Positions 41,914 to 49,163 are shown, counted from the first letter of the stretch. The stretch is 64,000 nucleotides of DNA from Terriglobia bacterium (GCA_020072785.1 JAIQGG010000004.1:124001-188000); one strand, 5' to 3'. Numbers and translations are program-made. Notes: generated by a model from the sequence alone, not told the origin.

Positions 41914-42834
41914 ATGGACATCCAGGCGATCGACTTTATGTATTACGTGGCCACCCAGGAGTTCATGGAGCGCTGGGACAAGGCCAAAGAAGGCGAACTA
42001 CTGTGCCGGATGGAACGCGCCATAGGCGGGCTGCCGCGCTATGAGTCCATCGAGGCCATGCTGGCGAAGATGGACGCCGCGGGTGTGGAAAAGGTTTTCA
42101 TTACCCAGTGCAAGATGTGGTCGTACTGGCGCAAGTGGATGTATATGGATACGCAGCTCGAGGACGTGCTGCAATACACGGAAAAATATCCCAACCGCTT
42201 CGTGGGCCTTGCCGGGTATAACCCCTTCCGCATCAAGGACAGCCTGCGGGAAATCGAAACCGCGGTGACCAAGCACAACTTCAAAGGCGTGTACGTACAC
42301 ATCTACGGGTTCGACATCGGGCTGGACGACAAGAAGATGTATCCGCTGTATGCCAAGTGCGAAGAGTTGGGCGTGCCGGTATCGCTGCAGGTGGGGCACG
42401 TGCTGGAAGCCATGCCCAGCGAAGGCGGACGGCCCATGCATCTGGATCGCGTGGCGTGCGACTTTCCGCAATTGAAGCTGATCGGGGCGCATACCGGCTG
42501 GCCATGGGTGGATGAGCTGGTTTCGGTCTGCTATAAGTGGGATAACATCTGGCTGGGGGTGGACGCCTGGATGCCCAAGTACCTTCCGCCGCAGGTGCTG
42601 CAGTTCATCAACAGCCGCATGGGAAGAGACCGCTGCTTGTGGGGTACGAATGGCCTGCCGTGGAAAGAGAACCTGGAACAGCTGGAGCAACTGGGCTTGA
42701 AGGAAGAGACGAAGCAGAAGCTGTTGCGGGGTAATGCGGTGGAGCTATTCGGGCTGGAGGAAAAGACGCCGGCCGCAAAAGTAGCCGCCGCGCCCGCGGC
42801 CAAGATGCATCTTGTGGAAGGCCACCTACACTGA
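41914..42834 (+). CDS. Amidohydrolase-2 family protein (ACMSD-like fold)
   Basis: Metal-dependent hydrolase or decarboxylase of the amidohydrolase-2 group (PF04909-like). ATG 41914 follows GGGAG by 7 nt. The TIM-barrel pattern is visible: MLAKMDAAGVEKVFI, RFVGLAGYNPF, GVYVHIYGFDIGL, LIGAHTGWPWVDEL and the C-terminal RCLWGTNGLPW, where family members have the metal-site Asp (here Asn). The usual N-terminal HxH is not seen (MDIQAIDFMYYV), so metal binding may be altered. First gene of the bcr operon; it may act on a ring-cleaved or hydrated CoA intermediate. Confidence 0.82.
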   Translation: MDIQAIDFMYYVATQEFMERWDKAKEGELLCRMERAIGGLPRYESIEAMLAKMDAAGVEKVFITQCKMWSYWRKWMYMDTQLEDVLQYTEKYPNRFVGLAGYNPFRIKDSLREIETAVTKHNFKGVYVHIYGFDIGLDDKKMYPLYAKCEELGVPVSLQVGHVLEAMPSEGGRPMHLDRVACDFPQLKLIGAHTGWPWVDELVSVCYKWDNIWLGVDAWMPKYLPPQVLQFINSRMGRDRCLWGTNGLPWKENLEQLEQLGLKEETKQKLLRGNAVELFGLEEKTPAAKVAAAPAAKMHLVEGHLH

Positions 42835-43607
42835 TGACTGCGGGGAGCGTACAGGGCAAGGCCGTGGTGATCACCGGGGGGGCCCGGGGGATCGGGCGGG
42901 CGCTGGCACAGGCCTTTGCGGAGGCCGGTGCGGATATTCTTATCGGTGATTTGCGCGCGGAGGAAGCGGAAGCCACGGCTGGGGAAATTGCGCGGGCGAC
43001 GGGACGGAAAGTGTTCGCAGCGGGCGCGGACGTGACGCGGCTGGAGGATGCCCAGAAACTGCGGGATGCGGGGATCGTACAGCTGGGGCGGATCGATGTG
43101 CTGGTGAACTGCGCAGGGTGGGACCGGCTGATGCCGTTTCTGAAGACCACTCCGGAGCTGTGGGACCGCATCATCGGGATTAACTATCGCGGAGTAATTC
43201 ACACCTGTTATGCTGTGTTGCCGCACATGAAAGAGCGCAAGCAGGGATGCATCGTGAACATCAGTTCGGATTCGGCGCGGGTGGGATCGATGGGCGAAGC
43301 GGTGTATGCCGGGGCCAAGGCTGCGGTGGTGGCGTTTTCGAAAACGCTGGCGCGGGAACACGCGCGGGACAATATCCGGGTGAACGTGATCTGTCCGGGG
43401 CTGGTGGATACGCCGCTGCTGGCGGAGATCCAGAAGGAAGAGTTTGGCGGGAAAGTGATCGGGGCGGTGATCGGAGCCATCCCGTTGAAGCGGCTGGGGC
43501 GCGCGGAAGAGATCGCGCCGCTGGCGGTGTTCCTGGCGTCGGATGCGGCCGGGTACATCACGGGGCAAGTCACGAGCGTGGATGGCGGATTGACGATGGT
43601 GGGGTAG
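42834..43607 (+). CDS. Short-chain dehydrogenase/reductase
   Basis: NAD(P)-dependent oxidoreductase of classical SDR type. Cofactor motif TGGARGIGRA at residues 14-23, NCAGW near residue 92, catalytic Ser in NISSDSARVG and YAGAK near residue 160. The 257 residues fit the family. It overlaps the preceding gene by 1 bp and precedes the reductase subunits. It resembles 3-hydroxyacyl-CoA and 2-hydroxycyclohexanecarboxyl-CoA dehydrogenases (BadH type), which act after ring reduction; substrate is inferred from position. Confidence 0.88.
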   Translation: MTAGSVQGKAVVITGGARGIGRALAQAFAEAGADILIGDLRAEEAEATAGEIARATGRKVFAAGADVTRLEDAQKLRDAGIVQLGRIDVLVNCAGWDRLMPFLKTTPELWDRIIGINYRGVIHTCYAVLPHMKERKQGCIVNISSDSARVGSMGEAVYAGAKAAVVAFSKTLAREHARDNIRVNVICPGLVDTPLLAEIQKEEFGGKVIGAVIGAIPLKRLGRAEEIAPLAVFLASDAAGYITGQVTSVDGGLTMVG

Positions 43608-43628
43608 GGAAGAGGCAGGAGGAAGAGG

Positions 43629-44801
43629 ATGACGGAAACGTTGGCCTTCAATTTTGAACGAACGTTCGACCAATGCATGGCGCTGGTCAGCGACCTGACC
43701 TTCCCCACGGTGGCCGCCTGGAAGCAGGAGCATCCCGGCGGGCGGGTGATCGGCTATTTTCCAGTGTACGCGCCGAGCGAAATCATTCATGCCGGAGGGA
43801 TGCTTCCGGTGGCGCTGCACGGCGCCGGGGATGGGCTGGAGCTACAGCACGCCGACGCGCGCTTTGGCTCGTTCATCTGCTCGATCGTAAAGAGCACGCT
43901 GGAACTGGCCATGACCGACCGGCTGGCGCTGATGGACGGGCTGCTGTTTTCAACCATCTGCGATTCGGCGCGCAATCTGGCCTTCGTCATCAAGCGCAAC
44001 CAGCCGGGCAAGTACGTGGACTTTCTGCACCTGCCACACAATCCCAACGGAACGGCCAGCCACGATTTTCTGGCCAGTGAATACCGGCGGCTGATCGGGC
44101 ATCTCCAGGAGCTGACCGGAAAAACGATCAGCGACGAAGCGCTGCGCAACTCCATCGCGGTGTTCAATGAGAACCGCAATCTGCTGCGCCGGCTGTACGA
44201 TTTTCGCAGGGAGTATCCCGAGCGGTTGCGGACCTGGGAGCTGTACGTCCTGATGCGCGCGGGAAATTTCGTACCGGTGGAGACGCACAACGAATGGCTA
44301 CGCGGAGTGCTGGAGGAGCTGCCGGGGCGGACGGGCAAGCGGCGCGACGCCATCCGCGTGGTGGTCGAAGGCTCGTTCTGCGAGCAGCCGCCGCTGGACC
44401 TCATCCGGGTGATGGAAGAAGCGGGCTGCACGATCGCGGACGACGATTTTATCCTCGGGCGGCGCTGGTTCAACTCGGATATACCCGTGGAGGGGGATCC
44501 GCTGATGAATCTGGCGGAGAGCTATCAGGACCGCTCGGTGTATTCCTCGGTGCGGCATGACAACCGGAATCCGCGCCAGAAGCAGCTGGTCGAGAAAGTG
44601 AAGCATGCGAAAGCCCAGGCGGTGGTTTTTCTGACCGCGAAATTCTGCGAGCCGGCCTGTTTCGATTACGTGCTGTTCAAGCGCGAGCTGGAAGCGGCGA
44701 AGATTCCGCATCTGCCGCTGGAATTCGAGGAAAAGGCCTACACGTTCGACCGCTTCCGGATGGAAGTGGAAACCTTTGTGGAATCCCTGCTCTTTGAGTG
44801 A
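43629..44801 (+). CDS. bcrC: Class I benzoyl-CoA reductase subunit C-like protein
   Basis: Subunit of the 2-hydroxyacyl-CoA dehydratase/benzoyl-CoA reductase family that, with subunit B, forms the substrate-binding [4Fe-4S] half (BcrC/BadD). The cysteines expected to bind clusters are present (FICSIVKST, TICDSARNL, KFCEPACFDY). Family landmarks are YFPVYAPSEIIHAGGMLPV at the N-terminus and DDDFILGRRW. 390 residues, as BcrC. Followed by B, A and D in the same order as in Thauera and Rhodopseudomonas. A 2-hydroxyacyl-CoA dehydratase role cannot be excluded by sequence reading alone. Confidence 0.86.
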   Translation: MTETLAFNFERTFDQCMALVSDLTFPTVAAWKQEHPGGRVIGYFPVYAPSEIIHAGGMLPVALHGAGDGLELQHADARFGSFICSIVKSTLELAMTDRLALMDGLLFSTICDSARNLAFVIKRNQPGKYVDFLHLPHNPNGTASHDFLASEYRRLIGHLQELTGKTISDEALRNSIAVFNENRNLLRRLYDFRREYPERLRTWELYVLMRAGNFVPVETHNEWLRGVLEELPGRTGKRRDAIRVVVEGSFCEQPPLDLIRVMEEAGCTIADDDFILGRRWFNSDIPVEGDPLMNLAESYQDRSVYSSVRHDNRNPRQKQLVEKVKHAKAQAVVFLTAKFCEPACFDYVLFKRELEAAKIPHLPLEFEEKAYTFDRFRMEVETFVESLLFE

Positions 44802-44819
44802 GCGGGGAGTGAGGGAGTC

Positions 44820-46160
44820 ATGTCCAACACCGAAAAGACCGATTATCGCGGGCAGATTCACCAGTTGCAGAAGGAGATGATGGTCGAGTGGTACCAGAAG
44901 CTCGACGAATCGGCGACGACGGGGAAGCCGCCGGCGGTGTCGCTGATGATTTCCGGCAACTGCGTCGAGTTGCTGGAGGCGTTCGACTTGCTGCCGCTGT
45001 ATCCGGAGGTGAACGCGCTGCAGCTGGCCATCCGGCGGCAGTCGCTCGAACCGATTCTGGTGGCGGAGGAGATGGGTTACGCCACCGACAACTGCGCCTA
45101 CGTGAAGGCGGATATCGGGGCCATGGTGAAGGGAATCACGCCCGCCGGAGGGAAGCTTCCGGTGGCCGCGCTGGCGCTGTGCAATTTCGTGGGATGCAAC
45201 GTCTATACGAAGTGGTTCGAGCACATCGCGGAGTTTCAGAAGTCGCCGCTGTTCATGCTGGACGTGCCGTTTCTGCGCACCGATTCGCCGAGCAAGGAGG
45301 ACATTGCCTACGTGGTGCGGCAGCTGCACGATCTGGTGAAGCAGCTGGAGCAGATCAGCGGGAAGAAATTCGACATGGACCGGTTCCGGGAGGCGGTGCG
45401 GAATTCGGCGCGGGTGGAGGAGTTGTGGTCGCGCATCAAGCATCTCTCGAGGAAAAAACCGTCTCCCTATGATGCGTATTTCGACGCCATCTCGCTGATG
45501 GGGCCGCTGTATGTGTATCGCGCGAATCCGCGCGGGGTGCACTTTTTCGAGGTGGCGCTGAAAGAATACGAGGGGATGGTGGAGCGCGGCGAAGGGCCGT
45601 TCGAAAAGGAGAAATTCCGGGTGGTGCTGGAAGGGCCGCCGCCGTATCCGTTCTTCCGCACGTTCCGGGACATGTTCGCGAAGTGGGGAGCGTGCGCGGT
45701 GGCTTCGACATATTCGACGGTGGGCGGGCTGTGGGAGTTCGGTTTCCGGCACGATCCCGCGGAGCCGTTCGAGGCGATCGCGCTGCACATGATCGAAAAC
45801 AACGTAACCAATCGCAACTACCTGCAGCGCTACGACCAGATCCGGCGGTATGTGGAGGAGTGGAACGCGGACGGGCTGATCATCCACTTCGTGAAGAGCT
45901 GCCGGCTGTTTTCTGCGGGGCAGGGAGACATGCGCGATTACTTCACGAAGGAGCTGGGGATCCCGACGCTGTATCTCGAGTCGGACATCGAGGACCCGCG
46001 CTACTTCTCCGAGGCGCAGATCAAGAACCGCATGGACGCGTTTTTCGAATCGCTGGGGCATGCCCCGGCGCGCACGGTGGCGCAACTGGGTGCGGGAAGG
46101 GCGGGCTCGGGCATTCCCATGGTTCCCACCCAGAGTCCGAAGTTGAAGGTCTTGAATTGA
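44820..46160 (+). CDS. bcrB: Class I benzoyl-CoA reductase subunit B-like protein
   Basis: Partner of subunit C (BcrB/BadE). 446 residues. Cysteines in SGNCVELLEAFD, NFVGCNVYTKWFEH and VKSCRLFSAGQGD match positions that bind [4Fe-4S] clusters in the family; the SGN-C and FVKSC-R segments are typical. The start ATG at 44820 lies 18 bp after the previous stop. The C-terminal 40 residues (after YFSEAQIKNRMDAFFESL) are an Ala/Gly-rich extension. Confidence 0.86.
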   Translation: MSNTEKTDYRGQIHQLQKEMMVEWYQKLDESATTGKPPAVSLMISGNCVELLEAFDLLPLYPEVNALQLAIRRQSLEPILVAEEMGYATDNCAYVKADIGAMVKGITPAGGKLPVAALALCNFVGCNVYTKWFEHIAEFQKSPLFMLDVPFLRTDSPSKEDIAYVVRQLHDLVKQLEQISGKKFDMDRFREAVRNSARVEELWSRIKHLSRKKPSPYDAYFDAISLMGPLYVYRANPRGVHFFEVALKEYEGMVERGEGPFEKEKFRVVLEGPPPYPFFRTFRDMFAKWGACAVASTYSTVGGLWEFGFRHDPAEPFEAIALHMIENNVTNRNYLQRYDQIRRYVEEWNADGLIIHFVKSCRLFSAGQGDMRDYFTKELGIPTLYLESDIEDPRYFSEAQIKNRMDAFFESLGHAPARTVAQLGAGRAGSGIPMVPTQSPKLKVLN

Positions 46161-46177
46161 GGAGCGAGGTGAAGACG

Positions 46178-47020
46178 ATGCGCTATGCAGCGGGAGTGGA
46201 CGTCGGATCGACGCAGACCAAGGCGGTCATCCTGCAGGACGACGGGAACGAGAAGAAGATGATCGCCACGGCGCTGGTGGATACCGGCGCGAACGTGCAG
46301 AAGGCCGGGGGCAACGGCTTTCAGGCGGCGTGCAAGGAGGCCGGGATTGCGCCGGAGCAAGTGGGCTACGTGGTGGGCACGGGCTACGGGCGGTACAAGA
46401 TTCAGTTCGGCAATACGCAGATGACGGAGATCAGCTGCCACGCGCGCGGCGCACATTTTCTCTTTCCCAACACGCGCACGGTGATCGATATGGGAGGGCA
46501 GGACAGCAAGGCCATCAGCATCGGCCCAGAGGGGAACGTGCTGGATTTCGTGATGAACGACAAATGCGCCGCGGGGACCGGGCGGTTCCTGGCCAACGCC
46601 GCCGATGTGCTGGCGATGCCGCTCGATGACATGGGGCCGTTTTCGCTCAAGGGAAAGAATCCGGTGAAGATCACGACGGTGTGCACGGTGTTCGTCGAGT
46701 CGGACATTCTTTCCTATCTGGCGCAGGGAAAGAAGGCGGAAGACGTGCTGAGCGGTGTGAACCTGGCGATCGCACGGCGGACGGTCTCTCTGGCGCGGCG
46801 CGTGCCGGTCGAGCCGGCGATCACCATGACCGGCGGGGTAGCGCGCAACGTGGGGATGGTGAAGGCGCTTGAGGACGTGCTGGGAGTGAAACTGCAGATC
46901 AGCCCGCTGGCGCATTTTGCGGGAGCGATTGGCGCAGCTTTGTATGCTCTGGAAAAAATGGATCAGGATTCCCAACCGGGAGTCCAGGATGGTGCGCATG
47001 TTGCGAATCGCGGGAATTGA
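46178..47020 (+). CDS. bcrA: Class I benzoyl-CoA reductase ATPase subunit A-like
   Basis: ASKHA-fold ATPase of the BcrA/BadF/HgdC family: it couples ATP hydrolysis to low-potential electron transfer from a bridging [4Fe-4S] cluster. GVDVGSTQTKAVIL is the phosphate loop; cluster cysteines lie in NDKCAAGTGRF and TVCTVFVESD. The ATG at 46178 is preferred (GAGG about 8 nt upstream); GTG at 46169 is possible. 280 residues. The stop overlaps the start of subunit D. Confidence 0.88.
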   Translation: MRYAAGVDVGSTQTKAVILQDDGNEKKMIATALVDTGANVQKAGGNGFQAACKEAGIAPEQVGYVVGTGYGRYKIQFGNTQMTEISCHARGAHFLFPNTRTVIDMGGQDSKAISIGPEGNVLDFVMNDKCAAGTGRFLANAADVLAMPLDDMGPFSLKGKNPVKITTVCTVFVESDILSYLAQGKKAEDVLSGVNLAIARRTVSLARRVPVEPAITMTGGVARNVGMVKALEDVLGVKLQISPLAHFAGAIGAALYALEKMDQDSQPGVQDGAHVANRGN

Positions 47021-47870
47021 CGTCGGCACGGGATTTACCAAGGCGGTGGTGATCGGAGTGGCTTCGGCGGACGGGCAAACGCCCGCGGCGGAGGGCGCGC
47101 CTGAAATTCTGGGGCGTGCATCGCTGCGCACGGGAGTGGAGATGGAGAAGGCGGCGCGCGAAGCGCTGGCCGCGGCGCTGGAAGCGGCCGGGCAGCGGGA
47201 TGCGGAGGTGCGCTACGTAGCCGCGACGGGCTTCGGGCGGCATGCCGTCTCTTTCCGCGACATCCAGATCACGGAAATCACCAGCAGCGCGCGCGGCGCG
47301 CGGTTCCTCTATCCGCATGCCACCTGCGTGCTGGACATCGGCAGCCAAACCACGCGGGCGATCACGCTGACGGAGACCGGGCGGGTCAACCAGTTCAAGT
47401 CCAATGACAAGTGCGCGGCCGGATCGGGGAGCTTCATCGCGCGGGCCACCAAGTATCTGGAAATTCCGCTGGAGCAGGCCGGAGAAAAAGCGCTCGACGC
47501 GGACAAGCCGCAGGCCATCAGCAGCATCTGCGCGGTGCTGGCGGAGAGCGAAATCATCAACCACGTTAGCGCCGGGGTGAGCCTGGAGAACATTCTGGCG
47601 GGGATCTACGAATCGCTGGCCGACCGCGCCGGGATGCTGCTGAAGCGCACCGGGATGGGCAAGGACCTGGTGTTCATCGGCGGGGTGGCGCGGCAGCGCG
47701 GCATGCTGCGGGCGCTCGAGAACCGGCTGAAGGTGACAGTGCACGTTCCCGAGAACGCCGAATACGTGTGCGCGCTGGGAGCGGCGCTGCTGGGACTGCA
47801 GCGGCTGCGGGCCACGGAGAATGCGCGGCGCACGGAAACGGCGGGCAATTCCGCCACGGTCGCCGCCTAA
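46989..47870 (+). CDS. bcrD: Class I benzoyl-CoA reductase ATPase subunit D-like
   Basis: Second ASKHA ATPase (BcrD/BadG), forming with subunit A the heterodimeric electron activase. Phosphate loop IAGIDVGTGFTKAVV, cluster cysteines in NDKCAAGSGSF and SICAVLAESEI. Start ATG at 46989 (MVRMLRIAGIDVG), overlapping the previous gene by 32 bp; ATG 46998 is an alternative. Two different ATPase genes, rather than one as in 2-hydroxyglutaryl-CoA dehydratase, is the main argument for a benzoyl-CoA-reductase-type enzyme. Confidence 0.87.
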   Translation: MVRMLRIAGIDVGTGFTKAVVIGVASADGQTPAAEGAPEILGRASLRTGVEMEKAAREALAAALEAAGQRDAEVRYVAATGFGRHAVSFRDIQITEITSSARGARFLYPHATCVLDIGSQTTRAITLTETGRVNQFKSNDKCAAGSGSFIARATKYLEIPLEQAGEKALDADKPQAISSICAVLAESEIINHVSAGVSLENILAGIYESLADRAGMLLKRTGMGKDLVFIGGVARQRGMLRALENRLKVTVHVPENAEYVCALGAALLGLQRLRATENARRTETAGNSATVAA

Positions 47871-47952
47871 GGCGGCCACCGGGCCATCGCGGCACGGCGC
47901 GGGGGAAGGGGGCTTCCTCCTGCGGAGCACGCGCGCAGTTCCAGATGTCGGC

Positions 47953-47958
47953 TATAAT
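47953..47958 (+). promoter_or_regulatory. TATAAT box directly before the CoA-transferase start
   Basis: Consensus -10 hexamer ending 8 nt before the GTG at 47967, the spacing expected for a leaderless transcript. No clear -35 box and no ribosome binding site in between. Confidence 0.55.
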
Positions 47959-47966
47959 TCCCGCCT

Positions 47967-49163
47967 GTGACCCCCGTTCTCGATTCCATCCGCGTAGTAG
48001 AAATGACCGAGGCCATGGCCGGGCCGTATTGCGCCATGTTGCTGGGCGATTTTGGCGCGGACGTGATCAAGGTGGAGCGGCCGGGCGTGGGCGACCAGGC
48101 GCGCGGGTGGGGCCCGCCGTTTGTGGGCAGCGAATCGGCGTACTTCCTGGCCGCCAATCGCAACAAGAGATCGCTGACGCTGAACTACGATCAGCCGCGC
48201 GGCGCGGAGATGCTGCAGCGGCTGTTGGCGACGGCGGACGTGTTTGTGGTGAACCAGCCGGTGCTGGCGTCGCTCGAGAAGCGCGGGATCGATCCGCAAA
48301 CGCTGTGCGCGAAATATCCGCGGCTCATCTACTGCAGCATTACCGGATACGGATTTACGGGGCCGAAAGCGGGGATGCCGGGGTACGACATCCTGGCGCA
48401 GGCCGAAGCGGGAGTGATGAGCTTTACCGGGGAGCCGGAAGGCAGCCCGATGCGCTATCCAATCGCCATCGCGGACATGACCTGCGGGATGTACGCGGTG
48501 ATGGGGATACTGGGAGCGCTGTTCGCGCGGGAGAGAAGCGGGCAGGGGCAGTTCCTGGAGGTGGCGCTGTTCGATGCGCAACTGACGTGGCTGGCCAACG
48601 CGGGCAGCAGCTACCTGAATGCGGGGGAATTGCCGCGGCGCTGGGGAAACGCGCACCCGAACATCGTGCCGTACCAGGTGTTCCGCGGAAGCGACGCGCG
48701 GCACTTCGTGGTGGGCGTGGGGACGCAGGAGCAGTGGAAACGGCTGCTCCCGATGATGGGATTGGAAGAAGAGCTGGGGAGCGACGCGCGATTTGCGAGC
48801 AACGCGCTGCGCATTGCGAACCGCACGGAGCTGATCGAGAAGCTGCAGAAGCGCTTTGCGCAGGAGCCGGCGGGCTTCTGGCGGGAGAGACTGGCGGCGG
48901 CGGACATCCCAGCGGCGGCGATCCACACGGTGGGCGAAGCGCTGGAGGATGCGCAGACGCTGGCGCGCGGGCTGATCGTGCAACTGGAGCATCCGGCGCT
49001 GGGGCCGGTGAAGAGCATCGCCAATCCGGTGAACTTTGCGAATACGCCGGTGAGCTACCGGCTTCCGCCGCCGCTGCTGGGGGAACATACCCGGGAGGTG
49101 CTGCAGAGCCTGGGGTACAGCGCGGACGAGATGCGGGCCGGGGAGCGCGAAGGGGCGCTCTGA
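47967..49163 (+). CDS. CaiB/BaiF family (type III) CoA-transferase
   Basis: Transfers CoA between carboxylic acids. Family motifs: VVEMTEAMAGPYCAMLLGDF at the N-terminus, GADVIKVERPGVGDQAR, and the catalytic Asp in IAIADMTCGMYAV near residue 170. 398 residues. The start is a GTG at 47967 just 8 nt after a TATAAT box, suggesting leaderless translation; ATG 48003 would cut into the conserved N-terminus. Separated from bcrD by 96 bp. It probably loads an aromatic or dicarboxylic acid with CoA for the upstream enzymes (inference). Confidence 0.9.
   Translation: MTPVLDSIRVVEMTEAMAGPYCAMLLGDFGADVIKVERPGVGDQARGWGPPFVGSESAYFLAANRNKRSLTLNYDQPRGAEMLQRLLATADVFVVNQPVLASLEKRGIDPQTLCAKYPRLIYCSITGYGFTGPKAGMPGYDILAQAEAGVMSFTGEPEGSPMRYPIAIADMTCGMYAVMGILGALFARERSGQGQFLEVALFDAQLTWLANAGSSYLNAGELPRRWGNAHPNIVPYQVFRGSDARHFVVGVGTQEQWKRLLPMMGLEEELGSDARFASNALRIANRTELIEKLQKRFAQEPAGFWRERLAAADIPAAAIHTVGEALEDAQTLARGLIVQLEHPALGPVKSIANPVNFANTPVSYRLPPPLLGEHTREVLQSLGYSADEMRAGEREGAL

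Follow-up and report, generated by a model that had tools for sequence, protein, structure and literature searches.

How would a bacterium open the ring of a benzoyl-CoA reductase pathway when its genome encodes neither of the known ring-opening hydrolases, Oah and BadI? The question is raised by a 64,000-nucleotide stretch of DNA from a soil acidobacterium, a Terriglobia bacterium (GCA_020072785.1 JAIQGG010000004.1:124001-188000; the window). At positions 41914-49163 it carries seven intact plus-strand genes in the order Amh-SDR-BcrC-BcrB-BcrA-BcrD-CaiB, i.e. an amidohydrolase-fold protein (Amh), a short-chain dehydrogenase/reductase (SDR), four subunits of benzoyl-CoA reductase (BCR) type and a CaiB CoA-transferase. 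A preliminary description of the sequence had placed an amidohydrolase and an SDR before the reductase genes and a CoA-transferase after them, and exactly this arrangement was recovered. With a probability of about 0.6 the operon belongs to a benzoyl-CoA pathway in which the SDR takes the place of Had, and Amh that of Oah as the ring opener.

In the proposed pathway BcrA and BcrD would hydrolyse ATP and deliver low-potential electrons to BcrC and BcrB, which would reduce benzoyl-CoA, giving the 1,5-diene. Water would be added by a hydratase of the crotonase type whose gene lies elsewhere in the genome (candidate at G000:C2:939980-940717), and the SDR would oxidise the ring alcohol to the ketone in place of Had. 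Finally Amh, in the role otherwise filled by Oah or BadI of the crotonase type, would cleave the cyclic beta-keto-CoA by hydrolysis of a C-C bond, yielding an open-chain dicarboxylyl-CoA. The sequences show the gene content, the phylogeny, the residues, the co-occurrence and the absence of Oah and BadI; we infer from them the substrate, the hydratase, what the SDR does and, most of all, what Amh does. Rhodopseudomonas palustris reportedly uses a BadK-BadH-BadI ring route; the window SDR has its best match in the BadH family, below the BadH cut-off, and a BadI over cut-off is absent.

Is the reductase of class I? Two HGD-D and two ASKHA ATPase subunits are encoded in one operon, the composition of a class I BCR. 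The C-B-A-D order, the cluster cysteines and the two ATPases noted in the preliminary description were borne out by Pfam (HGD-D in B and C, BcrAD_BadFG in A and D; in addition Amidohydro_2, adh_short and CoA_transf_3 in the partner genes) and by inspection of residues. BcrA carries the motifs NDKCAAGTG and VCTVFVES. The nearest solved chains are MbdO for the BcrB-type subunit (E 2e-65) and MbdN for the BcrC-type subunit (E 1e-94). The window B subunit keeps the cysteines of the active-site [4Fe-4S] cluster, C92, C126 and C361, and the catalytic Glu, E63; in BzdO these are C95, C128, C380 and E65 (PMC11971306). The cysteines were present in all aligned B rows and the Glu in every row covering that position; as 2-hydroxyacyl-CoA dehydratases (HADs) keep them too, they are necessary for a class I BCR, not sufficient.

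A tree built from 62 B subunits put the window B in a clade of 32 rows (support 100/99), distinct from the 3-methylbenzoyl-CoA reductase (MBR) clade, the BCR clade and the BZD group. The BCR clade includes locus L053, which exceeds the NCBIfam cut-offs for subunits B, C and D. A second tree, calculated with a mixture model and extra HAD-like outgroups, united BCR, MBR and window types (99/98) and set HADs and BZD apart; long outgroup branches leave the deep branching order uncertain. Judged by sequence, the operon probably encodes an ATP-dependent class I BCR of an undescribed clade. The preliminary description would have given up this assignment for an uncharacterised clade devoid of the BCR active-site residues: the clade has no characterised member, but the cysteines and the Glu are kept. 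A class I BCR of the BZD type was rejected. The position of BzdO His131 is occupied by Tyr129 in the window B and by Phe in MbdO and L053, and the six double-cubane cysteines of BzdN are not matched, the CTYTPE and RPACPT stretches facing Val and Tyr in the window C, as in MbdN. MbdN/MbdO (MBR-type, PDB 9g87) has the same cluster cysteines and Glu; however, MbdO is only ~34% identical to the window B, and the window clade is apart from the MBR clade with strong support. With the Thauera-type BcrCBAD, which goes with dch-had-oah, the operon has the C-B-A-D order, the two ATPases and the superfamily clan in common. It differs in that SDR and Amh stand in for Had and Oah, and in the equivalog scores of the four subunits, taken up below. 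The window BcrA is short (~280 residues), whereas that of L053 has ~440. HGD-D genes elsewhere in the 3.73 Mb genome were absent; the operon's B and C are the only ones. A plasmid collection yielded distant HAD-like matches only.

The preliminary description had listed ferredoxin, CoA ligase, hydratase and ring hydrolase genes as missing. At the locus this is correct, and a scan of the whole window gave no 4Fe-4S ferredoxin motif. It also is correct genome-wide for the ring hydrolases: some 19 crotonase candidates were found, and no crotonase-family protein was over the cut-off of Oah (TIGR03200) or BadI (TIGR03210), on which ground BadI was rejected as the ring opener. It does not hold for the ligase and for a hydratase candidate. 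Two proteins of the benzoate-CoA ligase family over cut-off are encoded elsewhere in the genome, as is a 4-hydroxybenzoyl-CoA reductase with its large subunit over cut-off. Just upstream of the latter lies the hydratase candidate, a Dch-like crotonase 64% identical to a BCR-near crotonase in a relative (L060/G039); it is assigned because it resembles crotonases encoded near BCR in relatives. Five POR-type 2-oxoacid oxidoreductase matches were present, and such enzymes could reduce ferredoxin and supply electrons. The 4-hydroxybenzoyl-CoA reductase was found in 20 genomes, 11 with BCR (p 2e-4) and 9 without. It was thus rejected as an obligatory partner and, because relatives without BCR have it as well, is used as supporting evidence only.

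Two gene clusters around these enzymes are recorded here. One (L100:6355-17105; G000:C2:936354-947104) contains the 4-hydroxybenzoyl-CoA reductase, three crotonases including the Dch-like one, an aldehyde dehydrogenase and a 3-hydroxyacyl-CoA dehydrogenase; in the nine relatives that lack any BCR the product of this reductase has no known fate. In the other (L192:9147-15199; G000:C2:1116146-1122198) a benzoate-CoA ligase family gene is followed by a crotonase, an SDR, a PRK08258-like crotonase, an acyl-CoA dehydrogenase and a further SDR. Its last crotonase and the acyl-CoA dehydrogenase share ~50% identity with genes of the L042 BCR cluster.

Amh is assigned to Amidohydro_2 (ACMSD/LigW/LigY) by profile and by fold. 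An AlphaFold model derived from 42 sequences (pLDDT 85) matched the uncharacterised 3irs (BB4693; Z 27.7) and the C-C hydrolase LigY (Z 19.3), and furthermore LigW, ACMSD and LigJ. An alignment with three relatives that keep the canonical site revealed that the four metal ligands of Amh are lost. HxH is replaced by F-M-Y (residues 8-10), the strand-5 His by Q159 and the strand-8 Asp by N246, which adjoins a two-residue deletion; H193 is retained. Across all 42 Amh sequences 42 columns are invariant. LigY demonstrates that the barrel can hydrolyse C-C bonds, and it needs metal; Amh has the same fold without any of the four ligands. Because Oah and BadI are also metal-free, the loss does not exclude a role of Amh in ring opening.

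The window genome has a second Amh paralogue (L099:9296-10150; G000:C2, about 226300-227150), which is 44% identical and has also lost HxH. It is clustered with a crotonase, two thiolase-like genes, an acyl-CoA dehydrogenase, an IpdAB-like CoA-transferase pair and an OYE-like reductase. At E < 1e-60 this paralogue was detected only in the three congeners in which the BCR operon is present as well.

Does Amh go with the reductase? Among 151 related genomes 17 had Amh, and 16 of these also BCR; BCR was present in 15 of the 134 others (Fisher 3e-12). Several of the co-carrying relatives have Amh and BCR on different contigs. The seventeenth Amh genome, G139, contains a fragment of BcrD where a contig ends. 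Amh is 69-96% identical among BCR-bearing relatives; genes in the relatives' loci were called by codon usage. A scan of a named genome collection then gave 66 Amh loci, nearly all in genomes titled as metagenome-assembled, from Acidobacteriota, Rokubacteria, Methylomirabilota, Binatota and other 'Deltaproteobacteria', Myxococcota, Acetothermia, Fraserbacteria, Armatimonadota, Planctomycetota, Chloroflexi and others. BCR subunits were located within the fetched flanks at 46 of the 66 loci, oah at none. In 19 genomes with no or a partial BCR near the Amh locus, a B-type match was found elsewhere in 13, two of them weak. Genome-wide, no Oah was over cut-off in 53 of 55 Amh genomes and no BadI in any of 38; these genomes were selected for having Amh, which biases Amh, not Oah.

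Amh was found beside four types of reductase: that of the window clade, MBR (L060, L058, L125, L158), BCR (L132, L145, L170) and BZD (L133). Therefore, Amh goes with the pathway rather than with any one reductase. An SDR of the window kind was present at 46 of the 66 loci and Had at six, never both (p 4e-4). Myxococcota locus L170 reads amh-had-dch-bcrCBAD, i.e. the classical set plus Amh and no Oah, and the truncated L168 is alike; for comparison, L053 reads had-oah-bcrCBAD. In L125, L158 and L170 Amh is the sole extra enzyme of a complete had-dch-bcr operon. In seven independent tree pairs Amh and Oah changed oppositely in about six and never in the same direction (p about 0.03). Amidohydrolase and SDR, which the preliminary description had called unusual partners, accompany this reductase across phyla more constantly than any other partner. 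On balance we favour, at somewhat better than even odds, that Amh represents a new class of metal-free C-C ring-opening hydrolases of the amidohydrolase fold. It would replace Oah/BadI in uncultured bacteria of many phyla (Acidobacteriota, Rokubacteria, Binatota, Myxococcota, Bipolaricaulota, Armatimonadota and others) and move between four class I reductase types.

Several observations are side issues of these loci. A sister reductase clade (L048-L052; genomes G036, G089, G093, G057 and G091) has Had-like genes and crotonases of 319-326 residues. The latter score ~160-175 bits against TIGR03200, far below cut-off, and possibly are divergent Oah proteins. A GNAT-acetyltransferase-like gene adjoins BCR operons of several types (L053:14164-14661, L055:5664-6164, L125:3750-4268, L133:9301-9990, L170:11974-12438), with an N-terminal helix-turn-helix-like region in the Acetothermia and Fraserbacteria loci; its product might regulate CoA ligases by acetylation. 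In some relatives (L038-L042) hemerythrin-like or RIC-like genes and Rrf2-type genes, so named by reading the sequences, adjoin the reductase, which would be compatible with use at low oxygen only; the window operon has none of them.

The features of the operon are listed in Table 1. The start of bcrD overlaps the end of bcrA (46989 vs 47020). All seven genes look to be under purifying selection because in each of them the substitutions relative to two congeners are mostly at third codon positions. The CoA-transferase was rejected as a core partner and probably does not belong to the core of the system. Only one of the two operon-bearing congeners, G007, has it 3' of bcrD, as in the window; it is absent from this position in G009 and in more distant relatives of the clade. 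An Amh-CaiB pair nonetheless recurs in Rokubacteria. There, runs of Amh-CaiB-crotonase were seen with BCR not nearby (L136:165-2999, L137:961-3648, L163:1-2700); a B-type match exists elsewhere in G156 (L136) and G157 (L137) and not in G163 (L163).

Table 1. Features of the operon; positions are counted from the first nucleotide of the window.
Feature	Position	Strand	Profile match
Amh, amidohydrolase-fold protein, 306 aa	41914..42834	+	PF04909 113.7 bits (cut-off 26.4)
SDR dehydrogenase, BadH-like, 257 aa	42834..43607	+	best NCBIfam match TIGR03206 BadH, 263 bits vs cut-off 431
BcrC-type subunit, 390 aa	43629..44801	+	TIGR02263 351 bits vs cut-off 421
BcrB-type catalytic subunit, 446 aa	44820..46160	+	TIGR02260 331 bits vs cut-off 487
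BcrA-type ATPase/activase subunit, short form, 280 aa	46178..47020	+	PF01869 226 bits, TIGR00241 263 bits
BcrD-type ATPase/activase subunit, 293 aa	46989..47870	+	PF01869 170 bits, TIGR00241 204 bits
Family III (CaiB) CoA-transferase, GTG start	47967..49163	+	PF02515 405 bits

A number of findings weigh against a benzoyl-CoA pathway with Amh as its ring opener. Subunits A, B, C and D all missed the NCBIfam BCR equivalog cut-offs (TIGR02259, 02260, 02261, 02263). A Dch equivalog over cut-off was not detected in any relative, the candidate of the window genome is below cut-off as well, and genes related to it occur also in genomes without BCR. Among BCR-bearing relatives a strictly defined Oah was present in 1 of 17 with Amh and in 5 of 15 without, a difference that is suggestive only (p 0.076). 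Counting Oah-like crotonases of at least 155 bits the figures were 1/17 and 12/15 (p 3e-5), a value weakened by the fact that this threshold was picked after the data had been seen. Three genomes, G159 (L147), G190 (L141) and G139, have Amh together with an Oah over cut-off. With its metal site lost, Amh could also be non-catalytic or have a different role.

The alternative with the best odds is that the operon is a BCR operon and Amh is not the ring opener. Amh would then hydrolyse a side product or another C-C or thioester bond, or be non-catalytic, and one of the many unassigned crotonases would open the ring. The lost metal site, the 19 or so crotonase candidates and the three genomes with both Amh and Oah are in its favour. 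So is Geobacter metallireducens, in which the amidohydrolase BamU is induced on benzoate and kept beside Oah (PMC1924859), and in which the amidohydrolase need not be the ring opener. We nevertheless regard this alternative as unlikely: Oah is absent from almost all Amh genomes and BadI from the 38, Amh is the only enzyme added to complete had-dch-bcr operons, and it is strongly conserved across phyla.

Amidohydrolases have been noticed in related clusters. The naphthalene degraders N47 and NaphS2 lack oah, and their ring-opening hydrolase is unidentified; the amidohydrolase ThnN, whose homologue BamU has no known function, is the remaining candidate (PMC12016498). The thn operon also contains ncrCBAD, which is of the class I type, and the CoA-transferase ThnP (PMC12016498). 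By description ThnN and BamU are like Amh, amidohydrolase-superfamily proteins in arene-reductase clusters; unlike Amh, ThnN is part of a naphthalene operon and BamU is located beside class II genes. In the open-access literature we found no paper in which an amidohydrolase takes over from Oah in benzoyl-CoA ring opening.

The likeness of gene content to the thn operon raises the main rival on the substrate: the window operon could reduce another aryl-CoA such as 5,6,7,8-tetrahydro-2-naphthoyl-CoA, and Amh would open that ring. That the window clade has no characterised member adds to this. However, Amh proteins of this family also occur with BCR-type reductases akin to L053, which is over the NCBIfam cut-offs: the Amh of L132 and L145, 75-76% identical, is encoded next to reductases that share 67-70% identity with that of L053. 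The genome encodes benzoate-CoA ligase and 4-hydroxybenzoyl-CoA reductase, and many genes of the thn operon (MaoC hydratases, AtuA-like lyases and others) are without counterpart in the window operon. A naphthoyl-type substrate is accordingly rather improbable. Because Amh is encoded with L053-like reductases and because of the ligase and the 4-hydroxybenzoyl-CoA reductase, benzoyl-CoA is the simplest substrate; its identity rests on these two enzymes and on the shared lower pathway. The preliminary description had suggested a new pathway for another aromatic or heteroaromatic CoA ester. In part this is supported: what appears unusual is the ring-opening step of the pathway, not the substrate.

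A 2-hydroxyacyl-CoA dehydratase system in place of an arene reductase is very improbable and already largely refuted: the superfamily is the same (PF06050; HadB match E 3e-50) and a HAD-like operon with a CoA-transferase exists in Azoarcus sp. KH32C, but both trees and the signature GN...PE(I/V)N(A/S)LQ, common to the window B, MbdO and L053 and not found in HADs, speak against membership, two different ATPases are encoded here and one at the Azoarcus locus, and the neighbours are those of a benzoyl-CoA-type lower pathway. Branching of B within the dehydratases had been set beforehand as the refuting outcome; B grouped with MBR and BCR, apart from HadB and two HAD-like outgroups.

We return to the benzoyl-CoA pathway with Amh as ring opener. 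An amidohydrolase barrel acting on C-C bonds without metal would, if true, be of enzymological interest. The genomes that carry both Amh and Oah, G139, G159 and G190, are exceptions to the replacement pattern and informative on the role of Amh when Oah is present. The bamA/oah gene serves as a functional marker for the anaerobic degradation of aromatics. Should Amh be the ring opener, this marker misses the pathway in dozens of uncultured lineages, Acidobacteriota included, and amh would be the marker to use.

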